30,584 nt of DNA from a virus, in IMG/VR virus record IMGVR_UViG_3300025030_000333, positions 1-30,584 of that record, one strand, 5' to 3'. Within the stretch, counting starts at the first letter, position 1, and each line of letters starts with the position of its first letter. Shown here piece by piece: positions 16,524-19,927 of the stretch. The position numbers and the translations under genes were made by a program. Under the pieces are notes generated by a model that worked only from the letters and a program-made list of their open reading frames with translations, was not told where the DNA came from and did no database searches.

Positions 16524-17840
16524 ATGGGTCTATTGAGCAAGATTAGAGATTTTGAATCATCAGAGCATTACAGATATTTTAGATACGGTAAAGATTATTA
16601 TACGGGGGACAACACCGAGATCATGAAGCGCAGAAAATGCATGTTCAACGAAATTTCAATGTCACTGTTGGACATACCATATAGGGCTAATCATAAGTAC
16701 CCATCTGGTTTTTTTAGGATTGTTGTAGATCAAAAGGTACAATATTTATTAGGAAATGGTGTAAAAGCGGAAGATGATGTTTTGGAAGCGTTAGACAATG
16801 CTACAGGTGGATTATACCCATTTTTAATCAAGTCAGCTACATCTGCGTCACAACAAGGTATCCAATGGGTATATATGTATGTAGATAGTGGTTCTTTAAA
16901 ATTTTCTTTGGTTGATCCCGAAAACGTGGCGCCTGTTTACAAATATGGCAGACTTGACAGTGTTATTTATACGTTTGACGAAAGTGAAATCTCTGTAGCA
17001 GAAGTGTGGACCGCAGAAAAGATGGAAAGATACGAAAAAACCAAGAAAGATACAGAGTTTCAGATGGTTTCAGAATCAGCGCACTATACAACCATTGAAT
17101 CGTTTGGTGGCAGAAAAGTTTCAGAACAACCGCATTCGTTCGGCATGATCCCTTTTGTCTGTCTGAGGAATAATCAGTATTCAAATAGTGATCTAAAAGA
17201 CATTAAAGCATTAATTGACATTTATGACATTATAGCAAGTGACTTTGCTAATAACATTGACGATATGCAAGATGCTTTTTATGTTGTCAAAAATTTTGGT
17301 GGTGAATCACTTAGCCAATTCATGAGCGACCTCAAGCAATACAAATCCATTCAAGTTGGGGATGATGGGAACGTCAGCGCAGAACAGCTAGAAATCCCCA
17401 CAGAGGCACGAAAAGTTTTTATTGAGCAATTGAATAAGGATATATTCAAATTTGCCATGGCGGTGGATGCAACGTCTATATCTGGTGGCTCAATCACAAA
17501 TGTAGTAATCAAGGCCATGTTTGCTAACCTTGATTTAAAGTGTGATAAGTTTGAAATGGAAGTTACTGACTATCTTAACGCCATGCTAGGCGCAATTAAT
17601 CTATTCTATGGCACAAGCCTACAGACAGATTACACCTTTGACCGTTCAATGATTATTAACCGCACAGAGGTGTTGACAGAGTTACCAAAGCAAACAGACC
17701 TGTCACTTAGAACAAGATTAGCATCTAACCCTCTAGTACAGAACGTAGATGAGGAACTTAAACAGCTTGAAATCGAAGAAGCGGAGCAAGTGAATAAGCT
17801 AGGCGGCGGAATGGGGTTTGATGATGGCGAAGGTCAGTGA
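16524..17840 (+). CDS. Portal protein (SPP1 gp6-like)
   Basis: 438 residues, ATG at 16524 behind AAAGGCGG. Recognisable portal features: an N-terminal RYFRYGKDYYTGDNTEIMKR segment, YRANHKYPSGFFRIVVDQKVQYLLG, then a wing region, IALIDIYDIIASDFANN-like helix around residues 230-245, and SGGSITNVVIKAMFANLDLK. These fit the SPP1-type portal that forms the dodecameric DNA channel at one capsid vertex. The 3' half has visibly higher GC than the early operons. It overlaps the next gene by about 17 bases. Confidence 0.85.
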   Translation: MGLLSKIRDFESSEHYRYFRYGKDYYTGDNTEIMKRRKCMFNEISMSLLDIPYRANHKYPSGFFRIVVDQKVQYLLGNGVKAEDDVLEALDNATGGLYPFLIKSATSASQQGIQWVYMYVDSGSLKFSLVDPENVAPVYKYGRLDSVIYTFDESEISVAEVWTAEKMERYEKTKKDTEFQMVSESAHYTTIESFGGRKVSEQPHSFGMIPFVCLRNNQYSNSDLKDIKALIDIYDIIASDFANNIDDMQDAFYVVKNFGGESLSQFMSDLKQYKSIQVGDDGNVSAEQLEIPTEARKVFIEQLNKDIFKFAMAVDATSISGGSITNVVIKAMFANLDLKCDKFEMEVTDYLNAMLGAINLFYGTSLQTDYTFDRSMIINRTEVLTELPKQTDLSLRTRLASNPLVQNVDEELKQLEIEEAEQVNKLGGGMGFDDGEGQ

Positions 17841-19854
17841 TCTAAAAACACGCAGTCAGGAATATTGGGAAGATCGTTTCTCAAAGCTACAGACAAAAGT
17901 TTTTAATGAGTCGGATAAATCATTCGTCAAAATTAACAAACTTTTCTCTGAGACATACAAGGAAATGAACGCAGTTGTTAATGAGACGTATAACAAGTAT
18001 GGCAAGGTCGTCGAGTCGCCTGTATTCACAACACTACCCGACGGAACAAGAGTCATAAGTGGGTCTGAAAAGGCACTTGCGCTTGATGATAAGATAATGG
18101 CCGCACCGCTTGCCAAAGGAACACGCATGGATAAGCTGAGTAATGACCTGAAACAGATTCTTTTGTCGTTGTCTGCCGACCAAAAGCAGATCATGATGGA
18201 CACGCTCAGCATAACGGCACAAGAGGCCTACTACCAAACCATGTATGAGATTCAAAAAGGCTATGGCGTGGGAAAGTCGTTTGATCTGCTGACGAAGCAA
18301 CAGGTCCAGTCATTGATAAGAAATCCTGTCAATGGCGCGGACTTTGTGGAGAGAATTGGCATCAATAACGATAAACTTGCAACAGAGGTTAATCAGATTA
18401 TGAAATCAGGCATTACACAAGGCATACCCAACAAGGAAATGGCTCGAAGGCTGTCGGATAAGATGCAGTTAGGCAATAATGTTGCCAAAACACTGATAAA
18501 TACAGAGATAACCAATAGCTTGAATCAGGCGACATTGTTGAGTTATCAGGATAGCGGGATTGTCAAGCAATATCAATTTTTGGCTACATTGGATGATAGG
18601 ACGAGCGAAGTTTGCCAAGACCTTGACATGGATGTATTTGATTTAGACAAGGCTGTCACTGGGCTTAATATGCCGCCGATGCACCCAAATTGCTTTGATA
18701 AAGAAACAGAAGTGTATACAGATAAAGGTTGGATGTTGTTTGATGATCTGACGGGCGGAGAAACATTTGTAAGTGTCAACACTGACGACATAACACAAAT
18801 GGAGTATGTCAAAGCAAAAGGCCGCATAAAATATAATTACAAAGGCGACATGATCCACTTTGTTAATCGGTCGTTTAACATGATGGTCACGCCTAATCAT
18901 CAAATGTTAGTCAAATATGTAAAGGCTGATTCATCAGGCAAATATAGATTTGTTGATGCTGAAAAAATGTCAAAGCACGCGAATTCAATTTATAGAGGTA
19001 TGCCAAACAATAACGCGCCTGTATCTAGCTTTAAACTTGGCAATTATGATATAGAGCCCGAATTATATTTAAAGTTTATGGCATGGTATTTGTCGGATGG
19101 TAATGCGACTAAGATCAAGGATAAAAACAGCTATAGAGTAAAAATAGCGCAAAAAACGCATTTAGATTTAATGTATGATGTATTGAAAAAGTTGCCTTTT
19201 AACGTTACAAAAATAAAAGAAGCCATCAACATTTATGATTATTCAGTTTGCAGTGAATTGCATAAGTTAGGAAAATGCGATAAAAAATATATACCCGATG
19301 CAATTAAAAACGTTTCAACAGATCAAGCAAAGTTATTTCTTGAAGCATATGCAATAGCGGACGGACACCAAAAGAAAGGAAAAGTGTTTAAAGGATATCA
19401 ATTCAAAGACACATACACTTTTTTTACAACCTCCGATAGACTGGCTTCCGACTTGGGGCATATGATTTGGTTAAGCGGTGGTAGGCCTAGTTTTAAACAA
19501 GAGAAGTCAAAAGTAAAAATTGTTAAATTTAAAAATGGCGATTATACAATGAATCACAATGTGTGGATCATATCGCTATGCACAAGCGTTAATGCTTCAA
19601 CAGACAACATCAAAACAGAGATAGTGCCTTATGATGACTTTGTTTATTGTGTCGAATTGGAAAAGTGGCACACGCTAATGACTAGGCGCAAAGGAAAAGT
19701 GGCGTGGTCTGGAAATTGCAGATCGACTACAATAGCGTACTTTGACGAATCAACAGATGGACTCACAAGAATTGCTAGAGACTTAGGTGGTAAGTCATTT
19801 TTAGTACCAGGTGATATGGCATATAAAGAATTTAAGTCGAAATACATCGACTAA
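17824..19854 (+). CDS. MuF/SPP1 gp7-type head morphogenesis protein interrupted by an intein
   Basis: About 676 residues, of which 334 are host protein and 342 an intein. I chose ATG 17824 (GGGG seven bases upstream); TTG 17818 and ATG 17821 are alternatives. The host part is typical of SPP1 gp7/Mu gpF: helical N-terminus, GITQGIPNKEMARRLSDKM, then INTEITNSLNQATLLSYQDSG, LATLDDRTSEVCQDLD and finally PPMHPN, which should be joined to CRSTTIAYFD. Between N and C lies the intein (18691-19716). After splicing the protein would be close to the usual about 300-340 residues. It binds portal and assists DNA retention or ejection. Unspliced product would presumably be inactive. Confidence 0.9.
   Translation: MAKVSDLKTRSQEYWEDRFSKLQTKVFNESDKSFVKINKLFSETYKEMNAVVNETYNKYGKVVESPVFTTLPDGTRVISGSEKALALDDKIMAAPLAKGTRMDKLSNDLKQILLSLSADQKQIMMDTLSITAQEAYYQTMYEIQKGYGVGKSFDLLTKQQVQSLIRNPVNGADFVERIGINNDKLATEVNQIMKSGITQGIPNKEMARRLSDKMQLGNNVAKTLINTEITNSLNQATLLSYQDSGIVKQYQFLATLDDRTSEVCQDLDMDVFDLDKAVTGLNMPPMHPNCFDKETEVYTDKGWMLFDDLTGGETFVSVNTDDITQMEYVKAKGRIKYNYKGDMIHFVNRSFNMMVTPNHQMLVKYVKADSSGKYRFVDAEKMSKHANSIYRGMPNNNAPVSSFKLGNYDIEPELYLKFMAWYLSDGNATKIKDKNSYRVKIAQKTHLDLMYDVLKKLPFNVTKIKEAINIYDYSVCSELHKLGKCDKKYIPDAIKNVSTDQAKLFLEAYAIADGHQKKGKVFKGYQFKDTYTFFTTSDRLASDLGHMIWLSGGRPSFKQEKSKVKIVKFKNGDYTMNHNVWIISLCTSVNASTDNIKTEIVPYDDFVYCVELEKWHTLMTRRKGKVAWSGNCRSTTIAYFDESTDGLTRIARDLGGKSFLVPGDMAYKEFKSKYID
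18691..19716 (+). mobile_element. Intein with a LAGLIDADG-type homing endonuclease domain
   Basis: 342 residues, in frame. Block A: CFDKETEVYTDKGW with Cys1. Block B: MMVTPNHQML with T67 and H70. Endonuclease motifs: LYLKFMAWYLSDGN (D136) and LFLEAYAIADGH (D224), spaced as in two-motif LAGLIDADG enzymes. Block F/G: DFVYCVELEKWHTLM, RRKGKVAWSGN, then Cys+1 of the host protein. The penultimate residue is Gly rather than His, a variant also known from other inteins. The intein DNA is clearly more AT-rich than the host gene. All splicing residues look intact, so splicing and homing are likely. Confidence 0.92.
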
Positions 19855-19871
19855 TTTTTTTTAACTGTTTT

Positions 19872-19905
19872 AGTGCAAAATCTTTTGCGCAAAAAATTTT
19901 GCACT
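19872..19905. repeat. Inverted repeat overlapping a promoter
   Basis: AGTGCAAAAT (19872-19881) and ATTTTGCACT (19896-19905) flank an inner palindrome TTTTGCGCAAAA. TTAAC/GTTAA arms extend it outward with a bulge. No T-tract follows, so it is not a forward terminator. Confidence 0.75.
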
Positions 19906-19927
19906 GTTAAAGTAAAAAGTGTATAAT
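19899..19927 (+). promoter_or_regulatory. Internal late promoter before scaffold and coat genes
   Basis: TTGCAC (19899-19904), 17-base spacer, TATAAT (19922-19927). The -35 box lies within the right arm of the inverted repeat, as in an operator-controlled promoter. Confidence 0.72.

Follow-up and report, generated by a model that had tools for sequence, protein, structure and literature searches.

The window analysed here is a virus record of 30,584 bases (IMGVR_UViG_3300025030_000333) with the gene order TerS, TerL, portal, MuF, scaffold, major head protein and tape measure. An open reading frame on the plus strand (17824-19854) encodes a 676-residue MuF/SPP1 gp7-like minor head protein including an insert; it starts with ATG, and an alternative upstream TTG start at 17818 is possible. 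The host flanks of the insert matched PF04233 (5e-15) and TIGR01641 (3e-21) above the profile cut-off as well as PHROG 115, minor head protein (2.5e-71). These profile matches and its place between portal and scaffold identify the host as a minor head protein of the MuF/SPP1 gp7 type. Directly past its stop codon, before the scaffold gene, lies an imperfect palindrome (19859-19918), possibly a terminator or a processing hairpin between the two genes. The following features were assigned:

17824-18690, plus strand: N-extein, residues 1-289 of the MuF/SPP1 gp7-like minor head protein, ending with MHPN (PF04233, TIGR01641, PHROG 115)
18691-19716, plus strand: intein of 342 aa running from Cys1 to Asn342, a Hint splicing domain into which a LAGLIDADG part is inserted (translation; end-to-end phage intein matches; model pLDDT 81.5)
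18889-18900, plus strand: block B, T67-P-N-H70 (residue check; T and H unchanged across seven MuF inteins)
19090-19101, plus strand: first LAGLIDADG motif, LSDG, residues 134-137 (residue check; alignment of seven MuF inteins)
19354-19365, plus strand: second LAGLIDADG motif, IADG, residues 222-225 (D224 and G225 invariant in seven MuF inteins)
19645-19671, plus strand: block F region, Y319-CVELEKW-H327, including Cys320 and His327 (residue check)
19705-19716, plus strand: block G end, W-S-G-N342 (residue check; GN end in relatives)
19717-19854, plus strand: C-extein, CRSTT to the stop codon, with Cys+1 (translation; alignment with intein-free MuF proteins)
17286-18999, no strand: tract diverged between the window and contig L002, right end inside the intein (contig comparison; metagenome linkage as assembled)

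Translation places the in-frame insert at 18691-19716 of the plus strand, corresponding to residues 290-631 of the MuF ORF (342 residues). It starts with CFDKETEV, the first residue being Cys1, ends with VAWSGN (Asn342) and is followed by Cys+1 in CRSTT. A first-pass annotation of the same DNA had described a 342-residue insert dividing MHPN from CRS, and its boundaries proved exact to the base; Cys1, the T-x-x-H block B, both D-G motifs, the S-G-N end and Cys+1 were likewise all found where it had placed them. Of the features of a class 1 intein we found Cys1, T67-P-N-H70, Asn342 with Cys+1, the Hint fold in a predicted model and seamless intein-free homologues, while Gly341 occupies the penultimate position instead of His. 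A penultimate His is usual, not obligatory, in class 1 inteins. Within the family, position 320 of block F varies (Cys or Asp), and His327 is not invariant, being replaced by Asn in some relatives. In the predicted model LSDG and IADG cap helices 123-136 and 210-224 and both motifs keep their acidic residue, so that the two helices with acidic ends of a LAGLIDADG homing endonuclease are present. Class 3 inteins have no nucleophile at position 1 and carry a Trp-Cys-Thr triplet. Assignment to this class was rejected: Cys1 is present and the triplet is incomplete, with Met two residues after the block B His, Ser before GN and the block F Cys alone shared, according to the block numbering that we take to define the triplet positions.

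The penultimate Gly had been regarded as a departure from the canonical intein end. A scan with the intein alignment yielded 147 relatives, 80 of which were kept; 78 were inspected for their end residues and 70 of these end in GN, making Gly the norm of the family. A Gly-ended phage intein is also known to splice. The mycobacteriophage RDF intein (Bethlehem gp51), likewise a class 1 phage intein with a penultimate Gly, splices completely in a reporter and is slowed by a change of this Gly to His (PMC5050341), but its host is a recombination directionality factor.

With tblastn the insert matched phage proteins of unrelated function from end to end (1-342), including a methylase of EBPR siphovirus 2 (9e-21) and the terminase (TerL) of Gordonia phage GMA6 (5e-17); further matches of this kind lay in a DNA polymerase, a thymidylate synthase and a mycobacteriophage nucleotidyltransferase. 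In the Pfam search no intein or endonuclease family passed the cut-off (Hint_2 matched weakly, 0.11), and TIGR01445 (intein_Nterm) matched residues 1-74 weakly, below its cut-off. Thus, a family label alone would not settle the identity of the insert. Among PDB sequences phmmer detected no true relative; the fold search did. For the AF2 model, which was built on an alignment of seven MuF inteins (pLDDT 81.5, pTM 0.79), the TliVMA intein was the best Foldseek match (2e-15), and VIA-align gave Z scores of 22.0 for PI-TkoII (2cw7; 302 residues aligned, rmsd 5.9) and 20.7 for PI-SceI (295 aligned, rmsd 4.5). Hedgehog and mini-intein Hint domains ranked lower, and the fold matches also include I-DmoI and I-SceI. 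The match of the model to solved LAGLIDADG inteins spans residues 1-342. PI-SceI, PI-TkoII and TliVMA (7qsu) likewise combine a Hint domain with a LAGLIDADG endonuclease; they differ from the phage intein in their larger size and cellular hosts and are 12-18% identical to it. Since the tblastn matches run end to end at values down to 9e-21 and these three inteins are the best structural matches, a chance match is excluded.

Removal of the insert leaves a protein of 334 aa and 37.6 kDa, in agreement with the product near 38 kDa that the first-pass annotation had predicted. The joined flanks read PPMHPNCRSTT. Comparison of the host with and without the insert, which had been proposed as a check, was seamless: the spliced sequence and MuF proteins that have no intein, e.g. 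that of Brevibacillus phage Powder (PPFHPNCRTTV), align across the junction without a gap. The whole motif PPMHPNCRSTT is present in three intein-free viral contigs, L221 (49% identity), L199 (58%) and L196 (47%), and 23-24 of the 30 central bases of their DNA at the site agree with the joined window site. The joined-flank DNA is a plausible homing site. The search for intein-free close relatives with an intact site was successful in part: the motif is whole in the nearest ones found, at 47-58% identity, and neither N-extein queries of viral and genome contigs nor blastn of phage records gave an intein-free allele of the same phage population.

That the insert is simply one more domain of the head protein has a negligible probability and is in substance already refuted. 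It is in frame and conserved, as this explanation would have it, but many MuF proteins without it show neither gap nor scar, the same element sits in unrelated proteins, and its fold is that of an intein. We consider it very improbable that the insert is a Hint-type bacterial intein-like (BIL) domain, which would cleave or process the head protein without splicing. The weak match to Hint_2 and the occurrence of other Hint domains at the same MuF site point in this direction, whereas the joint presence of Cys+1, the terminal Asn and both endonuclease motifs argues against it, as does a C-extein that carries on the conserved MuF C-terminus seen in intein-free relatives. We give a probability of about 0.93 to the reading of the insert as a homing intein of the LAGLIDADG type, carried by a phage gene for a MuF minor head protein. 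The earlier description is supported in that the intein, located at a conserved Cys of a MuF head protein, is complete, of the class 1 type and equipped with a LAGLIDADG endonuclease of two motifs.

In the tree of relatives the 25 LAGLIDADG inteins hosted by MuF group together (support 100/99, the bootstrap not being fully settled); MuF hosts were assigned by profile where one matched and otherwise by eye from a flank of the H-x-N/C type. Inteins of this clade in other viral contigs (L006, L007, L013, L016, L043, L086 and others) share the GN end with the window intein and nearly all occupy the same H-x-N/C site, but are 35-43% identical to it. The nearest of them (L086:3001-3879, 43%) has HPR in place of HPN before it, and its ORF breaks at about intein residue 295; it is perhaps a decaying copy. 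A member of the MuF intein clade (L111:3001-4023) occupies another conserved Cys (TKI/CMDFEG) of a MuF-like protein, and the site may have moved within one gene.

A DNA pattern for the junction (P-x-H-P-N-C-[FLIMV]-x-x-[DE]-T) was found in 58 viral contigs, and each of these reads as a MuF gene in which an intein or Hint domain begins at that Cys. The LAGLIDADG type accounts for about eight, and most others belong to a second intein family with an SSN/C end at the MuF HPN/C site (e.g. L012:8587-9405 and similar loci). This family matches Pfam Intein_splicing at 5e-8, just below the cut-off; its middle part of 130-190 residues has a conserved LHGDG motif and is without Pfam match. AF2 modelled the Hint part well and the middle insert not. 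Relatives of the second family occur in 114 named phage records, mainly of Salmonella, Gordonia, Pseudomonas and Klebsiella phages; in many of them the annotation is head morphogenesis or MuF-like protein. Among three records that were read, Pantoea phage AH01 has the HPN/C flank; other residues precede the Cys in Gordonia phage Angelicage and Cronobacter phage ES2. In prokaryote genomes the pattern gave nine matches, one in a MuF gene (L081) and eight in unrelated proteins, and therefore that scan says little about prophages.

Inteins in such proteins have been published before. A Mu-like prophage of Methylococcus capsulatus carries one in protein F (gp30), reported in 2004 together with the suggestion that head morphogenesis might be regulated by splicing (PMC517821). 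Like the window intein it is located in a Mu F/MuF head protein, but according to that paper it is without recognisable endonuclease and resembles archaeal IF-2 inteins. For a Mu-like cryoconite phage a 0.8-kb homing endonuclease insert, likewise in the minor head protein, was described in 2020 for one variant (AB09; PMC7468147), and we liken it to the window intein by this description. The first-pass annotation had taken this head protein class for an uncommon intein host. Because of the 58 contigs with the pattern, the second family in the 114 named phage records and the published precedents (PMC517821, PMC7468147), the class is not rare. The window intein itself is new; inteins at this MuF site are already widespread in phages.

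Across 10 kb, contig L002 shows essentially no difference from the window outside 17286-18999, apart from a few bases located farther upstream and at the right end of the contig; the case of contig L003 is similar. Between L002 and the window the N-extein has 60% protein identity with saturated synonymous sites (pS 0.76), whereas identity rises to 89% over intein codons 1-103 (pS 0.40) and to 100% over codons 104-342. For L003 the corresponding values are 61%, 95% and then 99% (to codon 222). Taking both contigs, pS is 0.76-0.78 for the N-extein and 0.26-0.40 for the first 103 intein codons, the lower synonymous divergence of the intein having Fisher p values of 3e-6 and 3e-12; these are metagenome contigs, in which strain mixing in assembly could make false joins, and ordinary recombination could likewise give joins of this kind. 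The pattern fits an intein that passed from one old head-gene allele to another and within which recombination took place afterwards. The portal C-terminus (17286-17840) diverges jointly with the MuF N-extein between these near-identical phages, as if the two swapped as a unit.

From sequence and model we infer splicing, cleavage and homing of the MuF intein. The whole precursor of 77 kDa would be made first. The Hint domain, about residues 1-120 and 305-342, would join MHPN to CRSTT, most likely by canonical class 1 splicing with Cys1, T67/H70, N342 and Cys+1: an N-S acyl shift at Cys1 would be followed by transfer to Cys+1 and cyclisation of Asn342, releasing the 37.6-kDa head protein and a 39.5-kDa intein. 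Other residues may aid Asn cyclisation where the penultimate His is missing, one candidate being His327 of block F. MuF alleles that lack the intein would be cut at their uninterrupted HPN-C site by the central domain (about residues 120-300), so that repair would copy the intein in. The conserved site would restrict intein loss to exact deletion.

It appears rather unlikely that the intein can still splice but has lost its endonuclease activity and persists through vertical descent and ordinary phage recombination. Ordinary inheritance would also give one MuF intein clade, and the nearby mosaic tract could be due to routine phage recombination or contig assembly. Nevertheless, the acidic residue is kept in both LAGLIDADG motifs, D224 is invariant in seven diverged MuF inteins, synonymous divergence of the intein is below that of the extein, and related inteins occur in widely diverged MuF proteins, all of which argues against this reading. 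A more far-reaching proposal, which we put forward only tentatively and hold to be doubtful, is that MuF HPN/C is a hot spot at which at least two families of inteins arrived independently, namely the LAGLIDADG clade and the family with the uncharacterised middle domain, with homing there driving portal/MuF allele exchange or splicing timing head assembly.

According to these data MuF head proteins are a regular home of phage inteins too, beyond replication and terminase proteins, and one LAGLIDADG clade is specific to the MuF gene. The conserved site together with closely related alleles makes homing in a structural gene amenable to testing, and the same system would allow testing whether the splicing rate affects head assembly.
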